Virus record (IMG/VR): IMGVR_UViG_3300038441_000042
Coordinates: 1-21,491 of that record
DNA: 21,491 nucleotides
Origin: a virus
Reading direction: 5' to 3' (one strand)
Of the stretch, positions 5,201 to 21,491 are shown piece by piece; positions within the stretch are counted from its first letter, which is position 1, and every line of letters begins with the position of its first letter. A program made the translations under genes and the position numbers. The notes under the pieces were generated by a model. That model was given only the letters and a program-made list of their open reading frames with translations, was not told where the DNA came from and searched no databases.

Positions 5201-8200
5201 TCTCACCGACGTTCTTCCACATGCTACCCGTCTGATTTGCACCGTTGTCCTGAGTTCCACTGATGGCATCCCAAAGTCCGACGATAGGCTCCTTTACGGC
5301 GTCCCAAAGTCCCTTGAAGGCCTTCTTAACGGCGTCGATTCCATCCTGTGCTGCGTTCTTCCACTTATTGAAATTGATTACAAGCACGGCAATTGCAGCA
5401 GCAATAACGGCAACTACAGCAATGATAGGAGCGGCAGCAACCACCAACTGGGGAATAGAGCCAGAGAATGCACTTATAAGTCCCGCAACTGGTCCGGTTG
5501 CTCCCTCGGCTGCTGCTCCTACTCCCGCAGTAGCACCTTCTAGTCCTGCCATTCCTGTCGAAGCCTTCTTCAACGGGTTGATCATGTTAATTAGGTTTAC
5601 GGGGTTGAGAAGCCCACCCTTCTTCTTGGTGTAGTCTCCCTTGACTGCTGATCCAGCCTTCTTGATTCCACGACGAATACGTCCACGTCCAGCAACAGGA
5701 AGTACAGCATCGTCGGCCTCGTCAATGAGCGCTGCCTTGTTGCCCTCCCACTTGAAGCGTGACTTCTCTGTACCGACCATTCCGGCATTCTCAATGTCGT
5801 CAAGGTCGTCGTAAATATCAGCGTGAGCGGCAGCGTTACGTGCTGCGGCAGCCTCAGCTAGAGCCTCCGTCTCCTTGTTACGACGGTATGACTCTTCTAG
5901 CTCAGCGAGAATAGCTGCACGCTCAGCCTCTTCAATGTCCGACATATCAAGCATTGAAGCAGCTTTCTCCGCCTGGGCTGCCTTGGCTGCACGGTACTCA
6001 GCAAGAGACTTGTACTCGACAAGCTCCTTGGTATCTAGATCGAATACCTCGTACACCTTTGTGTGTGCTGACTCAAATGCTTCCTGTGCGGCAGTTAGCT
6101 CCTTCTGGGCCTCTTCAGCCTCAGCTAGAATCTTCTTCTTTGCTGCCCCGATCTTGGCTGCTCGACGTGAGCGCCAGCTACGGTGAGCCTTTGCCTCCTG
6201 AGCATCAAGACGGTCTGCTTCAGACTCAAGGTCTGCTAGAACGTCTTCAGCCTTTGCCACCCGCTTCTTTGTCTTCTCAACCTCTTCAATCTCGGGGATT
6301 GCGTCAGTTACTTCCTGCTCTGTTAGAACAGCAATTCTCTTGCGGTTAGTATCTAGGCTCTTCTCAGCAGACTCTAGGTTTGAGCGGTGGGCGTTCAGTT
6401 TGGCATCTAGCCTGCTCTTCGTGTCGTTATCAAACGTACCATCAAGAATACGAGCAGCAATCTCGTCCTTGATCTTATTCATTTCGGCCTTGGCGTGAGA
6501 GATATTGTCATTGGCCGCATCAACAGCCTTCCAGGCCCGCTTGACCTTCTCTTCGTTGACACTTGAAGCTGTACGAGAAATCTTCTCAGCGGCCTTTACG
6601 TCATCGTCAATGACAGGAGCGAAGCCTGAAGTAAGGTCGTCCACCATTGACTCGACCCCGTTCACCTTCTTCTGATTTACCTTCTTACGTGCTTGCTCGT
6701 TTACAGAGTCATCTAGGCTCAAATCCTTCTGACGTGTACGGTTATCATTGGTGCTTACACGGCCGTCACGTCCCGCTGCTGCGCTCTCTGCGGCTGCTCT
6801 AGCGTTTGTGGCCTGTCCGGTGTAGATAGAAGCCTCAGCGAACTGACGCTGAATTGCATCATTCACCTCAACTAGCTTCCCGGCATATGCCTCAGCAATA
6901 TCGTCTCCCATTTCAGGGTGGTACTGCTTCACAACCTTGAGTGCGTTCTTGACAGTCTTCTCCTCGTTGTTCGCCATGAACTCATGTAGGCTGTCTGCCA
7001 TTTCAGGCGACAGGTTTCCTACAAGTTTATCTAGCTGACGAGGTGTGAACATACGTCCATCGGGACCCTCTAGCTTGCTCATGAACTGACCATTGCGCTT
7101 ACGCTGCGGCTTAAGGGCTTCCTCAAGGACGTTCATATCGTCCCCGCCATCAACGAAGTCCTTTGTTAGTGCGTTTACAGCACGGCTAGCGCCACGCTTG
7201 TTAGCCTCAGACTTCTTGATACGGCTCTCAGCACGAGCAATCTCGTCATCGTATGCCTTCTTACGGTAGTTGTCTGCTAGAGAAGTTTTCTTAGCCTCAG
7301 CCTTACGACGCTCGGCGGCAATATTCTCTTCTAGTCTCTGAGCATCACGTAGCTCTTCGTCAGCGAACTTCTGCTTGATGGCCTTACGTGCGTTAATAGA
7401 CCCCTTACCTACAGCGGGGTTAGCCTTGAGTTCATTTTCAAGAGCCTTATTGCGGATCGTACGCTCCTTAGCATGACGAGTCTCTAGCGCCTCAATTCGA
7501 TCCTCTGTTGCACTGTCGATCTGATCGAACAAGTTCTGCTCATCGGCAGCTAGCTGCTTAAGCTTTCCTCTGTAATCAGCGATACGGGCCTTGTCTCTGT
7601 TGATCTGATCCTGAGCAGCACGAACTGAAGCCTGTGCTTCATCAAGCATGGCTGCACGCTGCCCAGTTCCCTTCTTCAGACGTGAGGCTCCTTCTCCCTC
7701 AAACTTGGGCTTTCCAACTGTCTGGGCACGGAGAGCATTTCTCTTAGCCTGCTTGCGGAATGTTGCTGTGTCGTCAGGATTTGCTCCAGGCAGCCCTTGT
7801 GAGATTTCAGCAGCCAGTTCGTTGACGATTGACATTGCGTCATCTTCGTAGCCTGTCTTACCAACTAGATCACGGAACACTCCACGGAAGCCCTGCTTTC
7901 CTCCCCGTGACTTTCCGCTCATCGGATTGCCCTCATACATGTCCCCGAATAGAGCGCTAGCTAGTGTCTTCTTAAGCTCTTCGGGCATACCGAATTCATC
8001 AGCGTATGCAGAAATATTTCCTGATGCTCTCGCTGACTTGATCCAGTTCTCAATAAAGCTCTTTGAGCGCTCGGCGTTCTTTCTTCTGATGCTGACATTA
8101 GTAGCCTCAGTACGAGCCTTCATCTGATTCAAGGCCTTCTCTGCTTTGGCTGCATTCTCAGGACTGTAACGCTTCTTAGCTGCGATCTTCTCTAGACGTG

Positions 8201-11680: not shown

Positions 11681-12336
11681 TCACACCTTCTTGTACCCCA
11701 ACCCAGCAACTAGGTCCGGTGGTTTATCCGCAGCGGCTTTACGCTTACGGAACTCGGCCTCAAATGCCTTTATTTCTTCAGGAAGATCATCGTTTGACTG
11801 GTCATCTTCAAACGGATCAATCTCAATCCCTTGGAAAGAACCCATAATCCTGAAGTAGTTATGGTTCTTCTTCTTCAAGCTCTCATGGAGCAACAAGAGT
11901 TCGTCTAAGATGAGATGTTCTTCGATATCGTCAAAGCTCTTCCAGGCACCTATGCCCTCAACTAGAAGATCTGACTCCATCTCGGAGAAAGGGATATCTT
12001 CGAACGCTACCCCTTCCCCCGACTCTACTCGTTTGGGGCCGAGTTACCCATAGCTACGTTCATCATTTTATTGAACGAAACCAAATCAACAGCATCTTCT
12101 AATGCCTCACGGTCGGCAGCCAGCTTAGGATCTACCTTGGCTAGAATAATCTCCGCTGCATCTACCATTGTATCGATATCTTCATCAGACATGGTTGTAG
12201 CGTCCTCAGTGGAACCAAGCTTCTCAATCACCTTGACGAACTTACGAAGCTGCTTGAGTGTCAGAGGCCTGACTGTTCTTGTAATGTCATCCCCAAACTC
12301 AATAGCTTCTCCCTGTCTCACATCATTCTTGTTCAT
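11681..12336 (-). CDS. Tail assembly chaperone, -1 frameshift fusion product (G-T type)
   Basis: A second frame, ending with TGA at 11681, has no ribosome binding site before its first ATG (11980). Traced upstream, it stays open back to a TAA inside the end of the preceding gene. The overlap holds the slippery heptamer C CCA AAC (12031-12037), with CCA and AAC in the zero frame. A -1 slip after AAC joins residue 102 of the first protein to RVESGEGVAFEDIPFSEM and on to the second frame, giving a 218-residue fusion. This is the lambda gpG/gpGT arrangement: the short form coats the tape measure and the long form recruits tube protein. The slot between major tail protein and tape measure is the canonical one. 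The extension is acidic in the middle and ends in a basic patch (EFRKRKAAADK). Frameshifting is inferred from sequence and synteny. Confidence 0.85.
12025..12336 (-). CDS. Tail assembly chaperone, short (G-type) form, 103 aa
   Basis: This 103-residue acidic, helical protein starts at the ATG at 12336 behind an AGGAG about 10 bases upstream. It contains TRTVRPLTLKQLRKFVKVIEKL, shown here only as the motif RPLTLKQLRKFVK, then ATTMSDEDIDTMVDAAEIIL and a tail ending in NSAPNE. That pattern matches the small tail assembly chaperones encoded between tube protein and tape measure in long-tailed phages. It should bind the tape measure and keep it soluble while the tube polymerises, without being part of the virion. 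A strong terminator separates it from the major tail protein gene. Its last codons carry the -1 slippery site, so a minority of ribosomes should make the longer fusion. Confidence 0.85.
   Translation of the reverse strand: MNKNDVRQGEAIEFGDDITRTVRPLTLKQLRKFVKVIEKLGSTEDATTMSDEDIDTMVDAAEIILAKVDPKLAADREALEDAVDLVSFNKMMNVAMGNSAPNE
12031..12037 (-). promoter_or_regulatory. Programmed -1 ribosomal frameshift site CCCAAAC
   Basis: On the minus strand the last codons of the short chaperone read TCG GCC CCA AAC GAG TAG. C CCA AAC is an exact X XXY YYZ heptamer in the zero frame. Slipping one base back gives CCC AAA, then CGA GTA GAG, which is the frame of the second chaperone ORF. The stop TAG lies only three bases past the heptamer. 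Downstream sequence is G-rich (GGGGGAAGGGG), but I did not identify a definite stimulatory hairpin or pseudoknot. Confidence 0.85.
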
Positions 12337-13095: not shown

Positions 13096-13878
13096 CTATC
13101 TACGGATAGTAGTCGGGATGCCGAACTCCTTAGCTCCCTTGAACCTAATTGAGCCGTTCGATGATCTTCCCATGAGAAGAATCTGCCCCTTAGGTGTCAC
13201 CCTTACATTCTCAACTCCCATAGTTGCAAGGAGAGCTTTGCTCACACCCGCTCTTTTCAGAGCGACCTTGGCACTTTTGTCGATAGACACCTTGCCTTTT
13301 GTTGCCGACTCAACCACCTCTGCTGCTGCCGTATTGGCTGTGATGGCAGCTAGGACGGTTGCAGATGATTCAATCTGTGATCTCAAGGACTGAATGAGCT
13401 TGTTCACGCTCCCCGTCCTGTTTGTAATCTGTCCTCCAGACCTGCTTTTTGTGAAGACCAACTGGCCTCCATCATCTTTTGAGAACACCATGAGCTTGCC
13501 CTCTGTAGGGTCGTATGTTGCACCGAACTCATGCCGTGCCCACAGGTTTGTAGAGGGGTTCACCACTCCACCACCTGAGCGAGTCTCTTCTGCATCAGGT
13601 GTCTCGCCTTCTGTAAGGCCGTTAACTGCAACCACAACAGTCCCATTAGACCAAGATACGTTGATCGCTGTTCGTGCCGCCATGAACGCCCAGAAATTCC
13701 TGTCGCTCTTGCTCCCCGTTCTACTGCGCTCCAGCATTTCGCCAATCACCATACGGGATACGACCTCACCCACAGCAGGGGCAGCATCTTCTACAATGCT
13801 CTCCATCTTGGTTCCAGATAGGCTCAACTGCCTGGTGAATTCCTCTAGGTCTTTTTGATTGACTGTGACTTTCAGCAA
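13096..13878 (-). CDS. Putative neck / tail-completion protein (HK97 gp10-like candidate), 260 aa
   Basis: The frame opens at a TTG directly after the TAA of the preceding gene (TAATTG). No ATG lies nearby, and the sequence MLKVTVNQKDLEEFTRQLSL reads like a natural N-terminus, so TTG is preferred; translation is probably coupled. The segment PSTNLWARHEFGATYDPTEGK resembles the ARxxEFG motif of HK97 gp10-like neck/tail-completion proteins, which join the head to the tail. Their usual length is about 110-150 residues, so residues about 160-260 are an extension of unknown role, basic and with an Ala-rich helix. Position just upstream of the tail tube gene fits. Moderately sure of a head-tail joining role, unsure of the family. 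Confidence 0.65.
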   Translation of the reverse strand: MLKVTVNQKDLEEFTRQLSLSGTKMESIVEDAAPAVGEVVSRMVIGEMLERSRTGSKSDRNFWAFMAARTAINVSWSNGTVVVAVNGLTEGETPDAEETRSGGGVVNPSTNLWARHEFGATYDPTEGKLMVFSKDDGGQLVFTKSRSGGQITNRTGSVNKLIQSLRSQIESSATVLAAITANTAAAEVVESATKGKVSIDKSAKVALKRAGVSKALLATMGVENVRVTPKGQILLMGRSSNGSIRFKGAKEFGIPTTIRR

Positions 13879-14148
13879 TTAATAGTCGTAGTAGTCTTCA
13901 GCATCTTCAACTGAGGCCCGCACGAAAAACACATATCCGTCTTCGGGAAGCGACAGTAGATGCACTGACTCATCCTCTCCCACCCATTGAAACGGATGTT
14001 GCTTAAAAAAGCGAGTACCAGAAGTAGTTGTATAGGTTAACGGGCCTTTCTTCATCTTAAGAAGCACTTTGCCACGGCTCTTGCGCTTGTCGAACAGATC
14101 CTTGTAATCGAAGAGAACTCTATTGTTCTCCCTGTAACGTCTTTCCAT
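13879..14148 (-). CDS. Small unknown head-tail region protein, 89 aa
   Basis: The frame can be extended to an ATG at 14202, but that start would lie upstream of the HNH-gene terminator, with the hairpin itself inside the coding region. The ATG at 14148 is a better start: GGTGAT precedes it and a TATACT box ends six bases upstream. The 89-residue product begins MERRYRENNRVLFDYKDLF, is basic in its first half, and ends in acidic DAEDYYDY. No motif is recognised. Being between capsid and neck candidate, it could be a head-closure or adaptor protein, but this is by position only. Its stop abuts the TTG start of the next gene. Confidence 0.65.
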   Translation of the reverse strand: MERRYRENNRVLFDYKDLFDKRKSRGKVLLKMKKGPLTYTTTSGTRFFKQHPFQWVGEDESVHLLSLPEDGYVFFVRASVEDAEDYYDY

Positions 14149-14154
14149 ATCACC

Positions 14155-14160
14155 AGTATA
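14155..14160 (-). promoter_or_regulatory. Putative -10 box, leaderless-type, for the 89-aa gene
   Basis: TATACT on the minus strand is followed by GGTGAT and then the ATG at 14148. With the usual 6-base gap the transcript would start on the A of the ATG, giving a leaderless mRNA. It directly follows the U-tract of the HNH-gene terminator. No convincing -35 was found, so this rests on the box and spacing. GGTGAT could alternatively act as a weak ribosome binding site on a read-through message. Confidence 0.5.
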
Positions 14161-14189
14161 AAAGAAAATGCCACCCCGAAGGGTGGCAT
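14158..14189 (-). terminator. Rho-independent terminator after the HNH endonuclease gene
   Basis: A perfect 9-bp stem (14168-14176 with 14181-14189; ATGCCACCC paired with GGGTGGCAT) closes on a C(UUCG)G tetraloop on the minus strand, an extra-stable loop. It is followed by TTTTCTTTTAT. It lies about 25 bases past the HNH stop codon. Confidence 0.9.
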
Positions 14190-14213
14190 GTTCAAAAATC
14201 AATTATCTAAGGA

Positions 14214-14774
14214 CTAGATATCTTGAACCTTACGAAGATAGGCGGCTGCGGCTTCAAGCCATTCAGGATCATCTTGAAATTTACCAAGCGATGTATTGCA
14301 ATGCCAGCACAGCAGTCCCCGAACTACCTGAGTTTTGTGACAGTGGTCAATCGCCAGCCGTTCGTCTCTTCCACATATTGCACACTTAGCTTCTTGAAGT
14401 TCAAGTAGTTCATAGTATTCCTCAGTAGAGATATTTAATTTCTGCCCTCGCCTCTCTGCTACCCGTTTTTTATCACAGAGCTTGCAATATGTAGCTAGGC
14501 CATTTGGCTGACGCTTATTTTTGTAAAACTCAGTAATAGGTAAATCGGTATCGCACCGTCTACACAACCGTGTACCTCCTACAGCGTAAGGATCACGATT
14601 TTCGTTAACTTCGATATAGCCTTGGACTCGTCTCTTATTTTCTTCAGAAAGTCGCTGACGATCTTCGTCTGTTTTAACACGTCTAGCATCATTGAAACAC
14701 TCAATACACTTGCGACTACGACCGTGAAACGAGTCTTGAGGTTTACATTGTAGACATATTGAACACTGCTTCAT
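14214..14774 (-). CDS. Endonuclease VII-type HNH endonuclease with zinc ribbons, 186 aa
   Basis: The C-terminal third is a clear recombination endonuclease VII (His-Me finger) domain: zinc pairs C131/C134 and C156/C159, the catalytic cluster D143-H144-C145-H146, and N160 in RGLLCWHCNTSLG, as in T4 endonuclease VII. Two further Cys4 ribbons precede it: C4/C7 with C23/C26, and C71/C74 with C97/C100 (CRRC..., YCKLC). Such N-terminal zinc modules are often DNA-binding. The gene sits alone between capsid and head-tail genes, is framed by two terminators, and has no ribosome binding site. A TATACT box lies just before its ATG. This looks like a free-standing homing-type endonuclease inserted in a structural operon, though a role in resolving branched DNA at packaging is possible. 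The enzyme family is secure; the biological role is inferred. Confidence 0.9.
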   Translation of the reverse strand: MKQCSICLQCKPQDSFHGRSRKCIECFNDARRVKTDEDRQRLSEENKRRVQGYIEVNENRDPYAVGGTRLCRRCDTDLPITEFYKNKRQPNGLATYCKLCDKKRVAERRGQKLNISTEEYYELLELQEAKCAICGRDERLAIDHCHKTQVVRGLLCWHCNTSLGKFQDDPEWLEAAAAYLRKVQDI

Positions 14775-14781
14775 CAGGTAC

Positions 14782-14790
14782 AGTATAACA
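14782..14790 (-). promoter_or_regulatory. Putative extended -10 promoter, leaderless-type, for the HNH gene
   Basis: TGTTATACT on the minus strand (extended -10, hexamer 14782-14787) lies seven bases before the ATG at 14774, so transcription should begin at or one base before the start codon. The gene has no Shine-Dalgarno sequence, which agrees with a leaderless message. No -35 is evident, as is common for extended -10 promoters. It directly follows the capsid terminator. Confidence 0.55.
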
Positions 14791-14812
14791 CAAAAAGGAG
14801 CCTTTCGGCTCC
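14791..14812 (-). terminator. Rho-independent terminator after major capsid gene
   Basis: A 6-bp GC-rich stem (14797-14802 with 14807-14812; GGAGCC paired with GGCTCC) with a GAAA tetraloop on the minus strand is followed by TTTTTGTGTT. It lies 28 bases past the capsid stop and just upstream of the HNH gene. Confidence 0.88.
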
Positions 14813-14821
14813 CTCTTGCTC

Positions 14822-14839
14822 ACTAACTATTTAGTTAGT
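14822..14839. repeat. AT-rich inverted repeat after the capsid stop
   Basis: ACTAACTA-TT-TAGTTAGT forms an 8-bp inverted repeat immediately after the capsid stop codon. On the minus strand it also places a second in-frame stop (TGA AAC TAA) and stops in other frames. It could stabilise the capsid mRNA 3' end ahead of the terminator hairpin, or serve as a back-up stop. Confidence 0.5.
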
Positions 14840-14840
14840 T

Positions 14841-15833
14841 TCAAATTTCGGCTACCTTGATATCGGTCACTGTCACAGCAGCGTCGAGGTTCTCAATCTG
14901 GTTCGCAACTCTTGTGTACACAGTGTACTCAATTGCGTCCTTCTTCGGAATGTACTCACGGTAGACCTTGATCTCACGCTGAACACCGATGATCATGTTC
15001 TTCGGGAAGGTCCACACGCCGTAGCCGTGATCGCCATCTGCTCCCGAGTAACTTCCCTCAGCATCCTCAGGGAAGAGAGGAATCTCTACGCTGGTCACAC
15101 CGAAAGGCTTGAACCATACGCTTCCTCCACCCTGGCCGCTGACAGCCTCAGTAGTAACAGCACGCTCCTGAATGTTCAGGAATGCTCCACCTGATGCGTC
15201 AGATGCGTTGTTGATGAAGTCCTGTAGGAGTCCCGGTGAGGTGAAGAAGCGAAGATCGCCTCTACGGCTCAGGTACTTACGAGGAAGAGTCTTCACAACT
15301 GAGTTGAAAACACCCTTATCAAGTACTGATCCACCTGCTGAAATCACATGTGCGCCAGCAAGGAATCTCTTTAGGAATCCATCAAGCGACTTAAGCAAGT
15401 CGTCAGAATCGCCGGTATCACCGTTGATATACAGATCTTCCAAATCGTTTCCAAGCTGAGTTGCCATCAGTCGAGCAACATGATCCTCTAGGGAATCTCC
15501 CTCAAGGTTATCCTCCAAAGACTCTGTAGTCAGCTCCCAGTCCAGACGAATCTTCACAGTCGTCATTGAGATCTTGGAGAATGTGGGATCAACGTTGACA
15601 CCAGTGTCAACGCCCTCAGTGGCCTTCTTAGCAAGACGACGGCCGACCGCAATCTTGTCAAGTTCCTCTGTAGGGTTGTTCATCTTCTTACGGCGAACCA
15701 AGCCCGTTAGAGCCGCCTCGTCCCACATGTAGTCGATGAACTTGTCCGCCTGAGCGGGCTTAAGAATACCTCCACCAGCAGCACCTACGGCTGTAGTGTT
15801 CAGTACCTTCTCTAGTAGTTCTTCTGCACTCAT
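14841..15833 (-). CDS. Major capsid protein (HK97 fold), 330 aa
   Basis: The product forms the icosahedral shell. It begins MSAEELLEKVLNTTAVG and carries GGGILKPAQADKFIDYMWDE, the N-arm-like region, then KISMTTVKIRLDWELTTESLEDN, ATQLGNDLEDLYINGD, and LPRKYLSRRGDLRFFTSPG. This order is typical of HK97-fold capsid proteins of actinophages and related siphophages. At 330 residues it lacks the long N-terminal delta domain found in HK97 gp5, which agrees with a separate scaffold encoded by the upstream gene. It starts four bases after that gene's stop, with a GGAAGG-like site upstream. A terminator follows it. Confidence is high from sequence style and from the portal-protease-capsid order. Confidence 0.93.
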   Translation of the reverse strand: MSAEELLEKVLNTTAVGAAGGGILKPAQADKFIDYMWDEAALTGLVRRKKMNNPTEELDKIAVGRRLAKKATEGVDTGVNVDPTFSKISMTTVKIRLDWELTTESLEDNLEGDSLEDHVARLMATQLGNDLEDLYINGDTGDSDDLLKSLDGFLKRFLAGAHVISAGGSVLDKGVFNSVVKTLPRKYLSRRGDLRFFTSPGLLQDFINNASDASGGAFLNIQERAVTTEAVSGQGGGSVWFKPFGVTSVEIPLFPEDAEGSYSGADGDHGYGVWTFPKNMIIGVQREIKVYREYIPKKDAIEYTVYTRVANQIENLDAAVTVTDIKVAEI

Positions 15834-15837
15834 TTAA

Positions 15838-16356
15838 TTATCCCTTCCGAAGAGCGTATGTAGGAACGATCGAATCGCCCCAGAAACCCTCTTCCTTTTC
15901 AATCTTCTGCTCGCCGGTCTTAACCTCGTCGCCTGACTTCTGCACAGCGCCAGAGTTCTCAACAGTATCTAGTCTACCCTTGATTGCCTCAAGCTCAGCA
16001 GTAATGTCAGTCTTAATTGTCTCAACAGCTTCAGCAGTTGCGACCTTCTCAAGTGCGCCTGCCACCTTCTCAAGTGACTCAGCAACCTGAGCAAACCTCT
16101 CGTCGGCTGACTTAGCAAGGTCTGCTGATGCAGCCTCAAGCTTCTCGTCAATAGCCTTCGCTAGCTCTTCTTCGTTCATTAAATCCTCTTCCTTGTTCAG
16201 TGGCTCTTCAGAAGCCTCAGCCTCTTCGCCCTTTACAAAATCTACGAACTTACGGAAGATGCTCTTCTCGGCATCCGTAAGCTCTTCTACACTAGTTGTA
16301 ACAGAAGCTTCCTTATTCTGCAAATCTTCTGCGCCCTTATTTAGTTCGTCAGTCAT
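15838..16356 (-). CDS. Nested in-frame scaffolding protein, 172 aa (internal start)
   Basis: Inside the protease frame, ATG at 16356 (codon 327) is preceded by AAGGAGG five bases upstream, one of the best ribosome binding sites in the window and better than that of the full-length gene. Starting here gives 172 residues (MTDELNKGAEDLQNKEASV onward) that are acidic and helical with heptad-like segments such as EKLEAASADLAKSADERFAQ and SLEKVAGALEKVA. This is a typical scaffold, without any protease residues. The layout is that of lambda C/Nu3. A weaker second internal start is possible at codon 386 (ATG at 16179 behind GAGGAT). Not proven without protein data. Confidence 0.7.
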   Translation of the reverse strand: MTDELNKGAEDLQNKEASVTTSVEELTDAEKSIFRKFVDFVKGEEAEASEEPLNKEEDLMNEEELAKAIDEKLEAASADLAKSADERFAQVAESLEKVAGALEKVATAEAVETIKTDITAELEAIKGRLDTVENSGAVQKSGDEVKTGEQKIEKEEGFWGDSIVPTYALRKG

Positions 16357-17334
16357 ATTTTCCTCCTTGTCGTCTGACTTTGAAATTTCAGACTGATACT
16401 TCGCCTCGCACTCTTCGCTGTTCTTTCTCGACCGAACGCCAGTCAGAAGCTCAGTAGAGCGGATCACGTCGTAATCAGCCTTGTTTCTAATCGCTGCTCC
16501 CTGCCATCTCTCAAGAGCGTCAACAACGTCCCCGATTTCAGATGACAGATCAGCAAATTCGCCAGTCTCACCATTCCATGCTTTCTCAATCTCCCCATCG
16601 GCAATAGCCTCACTGAACTCAGTGTCGCCGTCAACCGACTTAATCAGCGAGATTGTCGCAAATCGGTTACAAGGATTATCTACTAGAGATAGCTCGGTAA
16701 GTCTGTACTTAGTGATTCGCCAGGCAGGAACTTCTTTATCCCCGTCCTTGGCTAGTACACGTTCTTTCTCCTGTGTAGCTCCTCCTACTGAGAAGCCACC
16801 TAGGGTGCCATCCAACACCTTCTGCCAGGTGTCTTCAGCCCCTTTTGAGATCTTCGCCTCAACCCACACACCTGAGAACTCATTACCATCGTCATCAGTG
16901 TATGTATCTTGACGCCAATCGACTGCTTTTCCAACAGCCTTCTTCTGATGCATTTCACGAATATTCCCGAACCAGTTTGCAAAAGCCTCTGTTGACGCAT
17001 CTGCGTCCAGAATATCTCCCGCCTGATCCAAGTTGTCCAAGGTAGCGAAGCCACCTACGATACGCTTCTTAACATCAATCTTAATCAACGGAACGCCAAG
17101 CTCGAAAGAGCCGTCGTCGTTCAGTTCTAAATTCGTTTCAAAATCCATGCTTTTACTCCATTTGCCATCCTGGCCCTTTGAAAAACCAGCACGCTTTACG
17201 GCTGCCCATGCTTCTTGAGAAGCATCTTCCTCAGCCTCTCCCTTATCCAGCGCATCGTTGAACACCTTAAGCCAGATCTTCTGTCCGGCCTTCGGTAGAA
17301 CTCTTGCTGCTTCGGGAAGTACGTTCTTCGGCAT
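15838..17334 (-). CDS. Prohead protease with ChaB-like N-terminus and scaffold C-terminus, 498 aa
   Basis: Three parts are visible. Residues about 1-60 (LPKAGQKIWLKVFNDALDKG, then ASQEAWAAVKRAGF) match the ChaB-like domain found in phage structural proteins. Residues about 70-235 resemble XkdF/HK97-type prohead serine proteases: RIVGGFATLDNLDQAGDILD, candidate catalytic H129 in REMHQKKAVGKAVDW, S182 in GGFSVGG, and E214 in TELSLVDNPCN. Residues about 330-498 are acidic, Ala/Glu/Lys-rich coiled coil typical of a scaffold. The protease matures the procapsid and the C-terminal part directs shell assembly. A strong internal ribosome binding site precedes M327, so the scaffold is probably also made alone. 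It lies between portal and capsid, the expected slot. The acyl-enzyme Ser and His are assigned by motif only. Confidence 0.88.
   Translation of the reverse strand: MPKNVLPEAARVLPKAGQKIWLKVFNDALDKGEAEEDASQEAWAAVKRAGFSKGQDGKWSKSMDFETNLELNDDGSFELGVPLIKIDVKKRIVGGFATLDNLDQAGDILDADASTEAFANWFGNIREMHQKKAVGKAVDWRQDTYTDDDGNEFSGVWVEAKISKGAEDTWQKVLDGTLGGFSVGGATQEKERVLAKDGDKEVPAWRITKYRLTELSLVDNPCNRFATISLIKSVDGDTEFSEAIADGEIEKAWNGETGEFADLSSEIGDVVDALERWQGAAIRNKADYDVIRSTELLTGVRSRKNSEECEAKYQSEISKSDDKEENMTDELNKGAEDLQNKEASVTTSVEELTDAEKSIFRKFVDFVKGEEAEASEEPLNKEEDLMNEEELAKAIDEKLEAASADLAKSADERFAQVAESLEKVAGALEKVATAEAVETIKTDITAELEAIKGRLDTVENSGAVQKSGDEVKTGEQKIEKEEGFWGDSIVPTYALRKG
16362..16368 (-). promoter_or_regulatory. 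Internal ribosome binding site for nested scaffold
   Basis: AAGGAGG on the minus strand, five bases before an in-frame ATG at 16356, in the middle of the protease coding region. The codons it overlaps (Lys-Glu-Glu) also suit the acidic linker, so chance is possible, but the match and spacing are optimal. Confidence 0.7.
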
Positions 17335-19582: not shown

Positions 19583-20581
19583 TTAATTTAGTTCGTACTT
19601 GGTTCGCATATACTCAATCCTGTCGATTGCTTGCTTGGCTATCGAATCCCATGAGTAGTGCTTGTGCATCTGCTCAGTGAGAATGCTCTGCACCCCTGAG
19701 TAGTAATCGTAGTCACGGATCATGACTTCCATCTTCTCAACAAGCTCTTCAACAGAGATATCCAACCACTCACCGGGGTGAATCTTCTGATTGTCCGATA
19801 GAACCCACTTGGTGTCTTTCAACTGAAGAGTCGAATGTCTAGCTACATCTGCTGCTACACCCTCGTTGGTAACGATCGTAGGCAATCCTGAAGCTTGAGC
19901 TTCCCAAGGGATGAGTCCCCAGCCTTCTCCCCGTGTTGGATATACGAGGCAGTCAACGCTTCTGTAGAGTTCCCACAGTTCTTTCTGCGTCATCACATGA
20001 CTGATGATTCTCAAGTTGTTGTCGAACATACCTGGGGACGCAATGATCGACCCGCTCGCATCTTTGACCCGTGCCTGAGGATATTTGATACACTTGATGA
20101 CAAGTTCTACGTCGTTTCGGTCCTTGAACGCTTCATACCAAGCACGCAGAACTAACTCCCCGCCTTTTCTCACAGCAGGCTCACCTACATGCAGGAAGCG
20201 GAACGGCCTGTTCTCTCTCCTGTGTTCAACTGGCTGCCAGCATTCCTCAATACCATGAGGCAGAACGAAGATATCTTCAGTCCGGTTTCTTCTGTACTGA
20301 GAGAACACGTCCTTGACAAACGGCGAGGTAACCCACAGATCATCAACCGCTTTGAGTCCCGCAACCCAGTTCTTCGGGACCTCAGTTGACTCCCACGGCG
20401 TGTAGCCGATCGTCAACCTGTCTTTGAATTCATAGTCAGGCGGCATACAGAAGTTCAACTGAACGTCAGAATCGGGGAGTATTGTAACTCCCCGATCCAT
20501 CAACGACTTTGTTAGCAACCTAGAGGCATTACCGTAGCCGGTGTGTTCACCGATCACTACTGTCTTGTAAGAAATCTTCAA
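19583..20581 (-). CDS. GT4-family glycosyltransferase, 332 aa
   Basis: The protein should transfer a sugar from a nucleotide donor, in the cytoplasm, with a retaining GT-B fold. The N-terminal half has VVIGEHTGYGNASRLLTKSL, a donor/acceptor Gly-rich loop, then GYTPWESTEVPKNWV, DDLWVTSPFVKDVF and VLPHGIEE. The C-terminal half has FLHVGEPAVRKGGELVLRAW and the GT4 EX7E motif, E219 and E227 in PTRGEGWGLIPWEAQASGLP. No signal peptide or membrane segment is seen. The ATG at 20581 overlaps the zinc-ribbon gene by 35 bases. Next to head genes it may glycosylate virion proteins; modification of phage DNA or of the host surface are alternatives. The family is secure and the substrate unknown. Confidence 0.92.
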   Translation of the reverse strand: MKISYKTVVIGEHTGYGNASRLLTKSLMDRGVTILPDSDVQLNFCMPPDYEFKDRLTIGYTPWESTEVPKNWVAGLKAVDDLWVTSPFVKDVFSQYRRNRTEDIFVLPHGIEECWQPVEHRRENRPFRFLHVGEPAVRKGGELVLRAWYEAFKDRNDVELVIKCIKYPQARVKDASGSIIASPGMFDNNLRIISHVMTQKELWELYRSVDCLVYPTRGEGWGLIPWEAQASGLPTIVTNEGVAADVARHSTLQLKDTKWVLSDNQKIHPGEWLDISVEELVEKMEVMIRDYDYYSGVQSILTEQMHKHYSWDSIAKQAIDRIEYMRTKYELN

Positions 20582-20759: not shown

Positions 20760-21491
20760 CTATCTGATCGGGCAACCGTTAACTGAACAGGCTAGTTCTC
20801 CCTGCCCAAATTCCTTGATGTACTCAGCGTTCTCAAACTCAACCTGAGTGATCCGCTCCAACGGAGCCTGAGGGCGTGATCCATCAACCATAATGGTTGT
20901 GCCCTTCAAGTGCGGGAGGTAATGGATAATTGTCTTTGCTGCTGCATCGACAGTGGCATCGTCAGCGGGACCGATCTTTAGATCGTAAACACTGACTCCC
21001 TCATCCAACTGACGCTCCAAGTTGTTGACCTGCTTGGCGTCAGGTTCGATATTAACCGTGAACGACACAGCGTTATCTGCGTAGCACTCTTGGAACATCG
21101 CCTGGACGGCCAACATATCTCCAAGAGATACGTCGCTGGCTCCCTCGACAATCTCAGGGTCATATCCTGCGTCGATTACCTGCTGCACCAATGGGTCCTG
21201 AACATAGAATGTCACTACCTTTGTGTTAGGCGAGTAGATGCAATCCTCTACCTCATATCCCTGGTCAGCGTATTCCTGAACCTGAGGATCGTCGGCGCTG
21301 TAACGAACACGGCGTTTCATCCAAGGTGCGTAACAGGTCTGACCGCTAGGTGTCTCACCGGGAAGGTTGGCGATTGAGCCAGTCGGTGCGAGGGTTGAGT
21401 TCTTGACAGGCACAGGGATGCGAAGCTCTCTAGCATAGAGTGAGCAAGCCTTGTCAACTGTTGACTTCCAGTCCCGCAAAGTCTTACGCAC
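20760..21491 (-). CDS. nrdJ: Class II (adenosylcobalamin-dependent) ribonucleotide reductase, C-terminal part
   Basis: Only the last 243 residues are in the window; the N-terminal catalytic barrel and B12 site lie beyond position 21491, and the GTG at the edge is not a real start. NSTLAPTGSIANLPGETPSG, YAPWMKRRVRYSADDP and ADNAVSFTVNIEPDA match the monomeric class II reductase family, which makes deoxynucleotides from ribonucleotides with coenzyme B12. The chain ends ACSVNGCPIR; the C-x4-C pair corresponds to the C-terminal redox thiols (C731/C736 in the Lactobacillus leichmannii enzyme) that re-reduce the active site. The presence of these thiols suggests a functional protein. B12 dependence suits an aerobic, B12-making host. 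The small zinc-ribbon gene follows six bases later. Confidence 0.9.
   Translation of the reverse strand: MRKTLRDWKSTVDKACSLYARELRIPVPVKNSTLAPTGSIANLPGETPSGQTCYAPWMKRRVRYSADDPQVQEYADQGYEVEDCIYSPNTKVVTFYVQDPLVQQVIDAGYDPEIVEGASDVSLGDMLAVQAMFQECYADNAVSFTVNIEPDAKQVNNLERQLDEGVSVYDLKIGPADDATVDAAAKTIIHYLPHLKGTTIMVDGSRPQAPLERITQVEFENAEYIKEFGQGELACSVNGCPIR

Follow-up and report, generated by a model that had tools for sequence, protein, structure and literature searches.

Described systems and the post-capsid locus

Morons are segments found in one phage genome and absent from a relative and typically consist of an open reading frame flanked by a promoter and a terminator (PMC3029335). In T4-like phages, free-standing homing endonucleases of the HNH and GIY-YIG types occupy intergenic positions, where several use upstream phage promoters; T4 has a middle promoter between mobE and nrdB, and its segD lies between capsid gene 23 and gene 24 in the opposite direction (PMC2988022). 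Leaderless mRNAs are established in actinobacteria (PMC8780764 and PMC4633059): in S. avermitilis, 22.2% of mRNAs are leaderless, with a 5'-UTR under 9 nt (PMC8780764), and in mycobacteria the -10 element lies directly ahead of RTG starts (PMC4633059). For cluster O mycobacteriophages, leaderless SigA-like promoters have been predicted whose +1 coincides with the first base of the start codon (PMC4351075).

The genes that can be recognised in the window analysed here, the whole 21,491-base stretch of a virus record, all lie on the minus strand. They encode part of a ribonucleotide reductase, a glycosyltransferase, a portal, a ChaB-domain protease, a capsid protein, and an HNH protein, followed by an 89-aa gene, a 260-aa ORF, a tail-type gene of the Ig-domain family, two small genes, and, in tape-measure position, a 3118-aa gene. 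The ChaB domain is N-terminal in the head protease (15838-17334; PF06150, E 2.9e-12), and the glycosyltransferase and adenosylcobalamin-type ribonucleotide reductase genes adjoin the head genes (19583-20581 and 20760-21491). The tblastn search with the capsid protein matched 204 phage records, 200 of them covering at least 80% of the query, and most of the 60 matches listed carry the label major capsid or virion structural protein; identity to Annadreamy, Karimac, and Mandalore was ~50-52%. Within the 21 kb compared, the order portal, protease, capsid, small gene resembles that of Stanwilliamsviridae, with fewer genes between the small gene and the tail gene. The source is an uncultured phage related to Stanwilliamsviridae and to soil Streptomyces phages. 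A capsid search of genome contigs for a host gave three distant matches only (28-34% identity; Bacillus badius and two uncultured Clostridia-type bins) and no host.

The moron, the homing-type endonuclease, and the leaderless promoter all appear to be represented at the locus behind the capsid gene. Like a moron, the HNH gene is an insert between genes that are adjacent in relatives, has promoter-like and terminator-like sequences at its sides, and deviates in composition; unlike a moron, it has probably captured, as the predicted promoter in front of it, a conserved post-capsid element that belongs to the phage itself, and it is followed by a further promoter-like -10 element, both starts being of leaderless type. 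It resembles the T4 genes as an intergenic nuclease gene that would use an upstream phage promoter, but differs in its leaderless-type start, in its orientation, which is that of the capsid gene (opposite in segD), and in that its homing is presumptive. The cluster O promoters share with the window junctions a predicted +1 that falls exactly where the start codon begins, but belong to a different phage group and, in the passages describing them, are not tied to post-capsid terminators or inserted nucleases. Karimacvirus PumpkinSpice gp263, an Endonuclease VII-type HNH protein with 34% identity over 96% of the window HNH query, likewise has a -10-type start (TAAAAT-N6-ATG, read by eye), but its gene sits at ~119 kb in a 132 kb genome, close to the opposite end and not behind the capsid gene.

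Two terminator-like and promoter-like junctions

The features of the locus, in window coordinates, are as follows.

14841..15833, minus strand: major capsid protein gene, 330 aa (phrog_1623 virion structural protein, E 1e-86)
14823..14838, minus strand: 16-nt palindrome CTAACTAAATAGTTAG just 3' of the capsid stop (sequence; folds as its own small hairpin)
14790..14819, minus strand: terminator-like hairpin A, core GGAGCC GAAA GGCTCC, T-tract 14796-14792 (fold and sequence)
14782..14790, minus strand: P_A, candidate extended -10 TGT-TATACT (sequence; TGn plus -10-like hexamer in 50/75 hairpin-bearing relatives)
14214..14774, minus strand: HNH gene, 186 aa (PF02945, E 1.7e-22; phrog_2633, E 1.8e-36)
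14168..14189, minus strand: terminator-like hairpin B, ATGCCACCC TTCG GGGTGGCAT, then TTTCTTTT (generic scan and fold)
14155..14160, minus strand: P_B, candidate -10 TATACT without TGn and without -35 (sequence; TATAAT-N6-ATG before the L006 homologue)
13879..14148, minus strand: 89-aa gene, homologue of the relatives' small post-capsid gene (small-gene HMM, N-terminal alignment)
13096..13878, minus strand: 260-aa ORF, TTG start immediately after the 89-aa stop (ORF list and homology to an L002 gene)

The original prediction had described a stop codon, a terminator, TATACT, and an ATG twice in succession, and every element was found at its place on the minus strand. The capsid stop (14841) is followed by the palindrome, hairpin A, TGT-TATACT (hexamer at 14787-14782), 7 nt, and the HNH ATG at 14774; the HNH stop (last base 14214) is followed by hairpin B, TATACT, 6 nt, and the ATG at 14148. 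P_A and P_B account for two of the three TATACT on the minus strand of the window. The remaining one lies ahead of the 3118-aa gene (11661-11656) and, with a 12-pair terminator-like hairpin 3' of the tail-type gene (12390-12363), may mark further late transcript boundaries. The palindrome contains AACTAAATA, and AACT[AG]A[AT]TA, a pattern picked after looking, was present no more than 60 nt from the capsid stop in 7/82 relatives (shuffle mean 0.16).

Hairpin A together with the neighbouring palindrome (50 nt) folded at -25.2 kcal/mol (z -7.15; 0/200 shuffles as stable), and its 25-nt core by itself at -15.4 kcal/mol (z -3.38; 1/200). For hairpin B, the 54-nt region reached -19.7 kcal/mol (z -3.66) and the 32-nt core -17.2 kcal/mol (z -5.30), each with 0/200 shuffles as stable. 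The G+C-rich hairpin and T-tract of an intrinsic terminator were recognised in B by the generic scan and fold, and in A by fold and sequence; the scan, whose totals were not above those of shuffles (promoters 7 vs 9.4 expected; terminators 7 vs 7.7 expected), called neither hairpin A nor a standard promoter at either junction. In the whole window, Rfam at the gathering threshold gave no match, and a tRNA search found none. Because the hairpins occupy the place of a -35 element, P_A would depend on its extended -10 and P_B would be the weaker promoter, with predicted +1 positions at the A of ATG 14774 and of ATG 14148, respectively.

The claim that both genes lack a normal ribosome binding site held for the HNH gene (anti-SD duplex -1.7 kcal/mol) and needs correction for the 89-aa gene, whose start is abutted by GGTGAT (-8.1 kcal/mol), too close for a normal SD. 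Two points speak against a leaderless 89-aa transcript: P_B, without TGn and -35, could be weak, and the GGTGAT beside ATG 14148 could serve a leadered mRNA. The homologue of the 89-aa gene in L003 has an SD and no such -10 upstream. The protease gene, the gene at 11681-11980, and the TTG-started 260-aa ORF also lack an SD, so the absence of an SD by itself proves nothing. Such gaps, together with the missing -35 at both sites and the failure of the generic scan to call either a promoter, would suit a reading in which the -10 boxes are fortuitous or belong to ordinary leadered transcripts, and the HNH and 89-aa genes are expressed by read-through of the capsid operon. We regard this as quite unlikely in view of the two stable hairpins, the -10-N6-ATG before the L006 homologue, the conserved TGn-TATAAT-like element behind the hairpin in relatives, and the spacing of -10 hexamers from start codons in related phages.

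This spacing was counted as the distance from TA[TC]A[AC]T hexamers to an ATG opening at least 40 codons, in 755 kb from six phages, five of Streptomyces and one of Rhodococcus, whose capsid proteins are related to that of the window (four whole genomes, with Mandalore and Trina in part). The 6 nt distance had 42 sites and the 7 nt distance 21 (63 together), against 120 at the other 19 distances taken together (mean 6.3 each), and a reversed-hexamer control gave 7 and 3; the peak had P < 0.001 in five of the six phages and 0.01 in Trina. GTG starts gave little signal (8 at 6 nt, 3 at 7 nt). Five uncultured relatives (165 kb) contained 13 sites at 6 nt (control 2), seven of them in one record and none in another, and showed no peak at 7 nt (2; control 5). 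The 24 strict hexamers of the window included one site each at 6, 7, and 2 nt, and at its junctions the -10 lies 7 nt before the HNH start and 6 nt before the 89-aa start. Upstream terminators were not general at such sites (10/63 vs 9/120 at other distances).

T4, as a control, showed no significant peak (5 and 4 vs 3.05 per other distance, P 0.16), and in lambda and the GC-rich control phages strict hexamers were too few to test (1-38). A looser hexamer set brought out a lean to 6-7 nt in three of four GC-rich actinophages, namely phiC31 (P 3e-4), HufflyPuff (0.013), and Mollymur (0.04), and no such lean was seen in Phlei or lambda. Because the -10 peaks sharply 6-7 nt before ATG, leaderless starts look like a real trait of the related phage group, which supports the original description of the boxes as leaderless-type, though not one shown to be special to the group; since GC-rich actinophages also lean to this distance, the trait may be wider.

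An HNH insertion at a conserved junction

The HNH protein has N-terminal CxxC motifs and a C-terminal Endonuclease VII domain, and had no match in NCBIfam at 0.01. Searches of viral contigs found four distant loci with the HNH query and no relative of the 89-aa protein. The HNH gene has a GC content of 43.1% and a GC3 of 33.2%, compared with 45.2-52.2% and 45.1-57.4% in seven other window genes, and its codon score was the lowest among the seven genes scored. Composition unlike that of the neighbours is a mark of morons, and the window HNH gene bears it; against the argument from composition, the 89-aa gene also tends to be rich in AT (GC 45.2%).

Annadreamy, Circinus, Moab, Faust, Karimac, Mildred21, Wakanda, Dorin, Trina, and Peregrin all have one small gene after the capsid gene. 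An HMM of this gene from ten relatives, with the window protein excluded, found the 89-aa protein at E 1.8e-5, as well as homologues in L006 (1e-6) and L003 (2.8e-9); this ten-seed repeat was read for the window and six chosen loci. The first residues of the 89-aa protein align with those of the L003 and L006 homologues, which supports the start at ATG 14148.

Loci for the wider comparison came from capsid searches (21 loci; best 80 of 597) and eleven named phages. A capsid match was present in 113 loci, among which 109 had a capsid stop and 91, the window included, a small-gene match; the 18 others comprised distant loci (L013-L016, L018, L019, L022), contig ends (L005, L007, L183, L226, L229), L002, where another gene is next, and L222-L224, L235, and L238. 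Removal of exact repeats of the first 70 nt, with near repeats kept, left 82 loci, which represent nearest relatives and not a random sample, and whose counts are not independent, the genomes being related. The HMM used here had the window protein among its seeds, and four intended seeds were empty or a 5-residue piece. A small gene was scored as directly behind the capsid gene when its stop-to-stop segment begins at most 137 nt from the capsid stop, a criterion applied to segments and not to individual start codons; this was so in 77/82 loci, with an insert between the two genes in five (L003, L006, L008, L009, and L212, of which L008 and L009 are close copies).

Because a homologue of the 89-aa gene directly follows the capsid gene in 77 of the 82 loci, this comparison of gene orders establishes the HNH gene as an insertion relative to the relatives, as originally proposed. 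It lies between genes that are contiguous there, and its promoter-like and terminator-like flanks were seen as sequence and fold. The HNH/Endonuclease VII domain and the sporadic presence at an intergenic site are those of a homing endonuclease, and the insertion is probably a moron or a free-standing homing-type endonuclease with presumed homing activity. A precise empty site was sought among the nearest relatives and not found: L003 and L004 hold another HNH gene, and L002 also lacks the small gene. At the L002 junction (5993-6060), which belongs to the closest capsid relative (86%) among the matches listed, neither an HNH gene nor the small gene is present; the capsid gene is directly followed, after a hairpin, by a homologue of the window 260-aa ORF (27% identity, 204 columns).

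The other inserts differ from that of the window. L003 carries an HNH gene matching PF01844 and PF13392, L212 an HNH_3 gene (PF13392) laid out as capsid, hairpin, TACACT-N6-ATG, and L009 two genes without a Pfam match. By BLASTP, the window HNH protein matched neither the L003 nor the L212 protein, and a single comparison of the latter two gave a weak alignment (26%, E 0.003). A count of three HNH families in the slot was dropped, as L003 also matches PF13392, the L212 family. In L006, the hairpin and TGTGCTATACT are followed by genes for tRNA-Met, -Gly, and -Trp (6056-6332), and then by a fresh TATAAT-N6-ATG before the small gene. Behind the L212 HNH gene there is a new TGCTACAAT with a leader and SD, and no hairpin was seen between; in L003, the small gene behind the HNH gene starts from an SD, with no fresh leaderless-type -10. 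L006 thus appears to follow the same logic as the window and L212 too has a new -10-like element behind its HNH gene, which L003 does not.

The original prediction had named relatives without the HNH gene as a check on whether one terminator/promoter copy remains, and they usually keep one. A hairpin followed the capsid stop in 75/82 loci, compared with 0-1/82 in each of 10 shuffles. Behind it, a -10 with at least 5/6 matches occurred in 65/75 (shuffle mean 30.9), TGn plus such a -10 in 50/75 (mean 2.4, maximum 8 in 200 rounds), and the strict TGnTA[TC]A[AC]T in 39/75 (mean 0.8), with shuffles that preserve base composition only, as in the flank test below. The copy A sequence, TGTGTTATACT, compares with TGTGTTATAAT in Karimac and L171 and TGTGCTATACT in L006. 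An ATG or GTG stood 6-7 nt after the -10 in 20/82 loci, some not being the gene's own starts; among the 65 relatives in which a -10 follows the hairpin, 45 had none at this distance, and many of these have an SD leader instead. The leaderless layout occurred at the junction without any HNH gene in L126 (Mandalore), L171, L172, L184, and L191. A separate arrangement, TATAAT/TACAAT-N6-ATGGAGGAAATATGAG, was found in L119 (4055-4069), L120, L190, and L192 and, longer, in L186: the predicted +1 falls on the ATG of a 4-codon ORF (e.g. MEEI*; 7 codons in L186), which overlaps the small-gene start and contains the small-gene SD, as read by eye. This is perhaps a leaderless mini-ORF coupled to the small gene.

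The hairpins might instead be mainly RNA-processing or 3'-stabilising elements, or partial attenuators, that partly uncouple the capsid gene from downstream genes. The L003 hairpin has no T-tract, and in L010, L187, and L211 the order is reversed, a -10-like box preceding a hairpin in the presumed leader, followed by an SD and ATG. Both hairpins of the window, however, have T-rich tails, and 74/82 relatives have at least three T in an 8-base window near the hairpin end by a lenient test; we consider this alternative unlikely.

Because P_A alone has the TGn-TATACT form common in relatives, at their position, hairpin A/P_A is most likely the phage's own older element, now starting the HNH gene, an assignment resting on form and place and not on an exact empty site. 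On the same grounds, hairpin B/P_B was rejected as the older copy; it would have come with the insertion or arisen afterwards, as compensation.

The similar flanks had also been proposed to mark an insertion boundary, which the comparison did not bear out. The best local match between them, 15 bases TTTTnTnTTATACTG around the -10, scored 11 (shuffle fraction 0.04), and nothing was left once the -10 was masked (0.62); the stems of hairpins A and B are unrelated, and only the -10 and T-rich sequence are shared. Flank similarity was therefore rejected as an insertion mark. It is improbable, for the same reasons, that both flanks are copies of one ancestral terminator/promoter duplicated at HNH entry, even though each reads as hairpin, T-tract, TATACTG, and ATG, since two ordinary terminator/promoter junctions suffice to produce a T-tract and -10 on both sides. 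A case that fits duplication is a partial direct repeat, CCGGCTCT-CTA...ATG, on either side of the unrelated HNH gene of L003 (6051-6073 and 6418-6440; near copy L004), which is possibly a trace of that insertion (score 13, shuffle fraction 0.0015, tested after seeing).

Predicted transcription restarts and a possible insertion slot

We consider it probable that the HNH gene, which would encode a free-standing endonuclease, probably of homing type, entered a conserved post-capsid terminator/promoter junction in the manner of a moron, with leaderless restarts. The anatomy, the insertion relative to relatives, the conservation of the first junction, and the 6-7 nt spacing in relatives are observed, and the starts and stops of transcription are deduced from them. 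The capsid mRNA would end at hairpin A; RNA polymerase would restart at P_A, producing a transcript that opens with the HNH start codon and ends at hairpin B; and P_B would start a leaderless 89-aa transcript running on into the 260-aa ORF, presumed to share it, and probably into the head-tail genes. A restart for downstream head-tail genes, as originally suggested, would be consistent with these elements. A capsid-specific stop could allow an excess of capsid protein over neck proteins.

What stands out most is the conserved post-capsid junction and its repeated occupation by inserts, which include HNH genes of at least two unrelated kinds, a tRNA array, and other genes. We suggest tentatively, with somewhat more doubt than conviction, that the terminator and extended -10 behind the capsid gene act throughout the family as a regulatory switch and also as a landing slot, just downstream of which unrelated mobile genes insert time and again; some of them would capture the leaderless start, and they would be kept because a replacement promoter behind them restores the head genes. 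Among the titles listed on leaderless transcription and promoters in actinobacterial phages and on capsid terminators, none describes the junction for this group, which is no proof of absence, and the Stanwilliamsviridae literature, by title or abstract start, held nothing on transcription.

If the predicted starts are right, the late operon in a large group of actinophages is divided right after the capsid gene by a terminator followed by a promoter, and leaderless messages are frequent in the group, with starts that SD-based annotation may overlook. The locus would also be a natural case of homing-type genes settling in an essential operon without breaking it, and relatives with different inserts in the one slot allow this settling to be tested.
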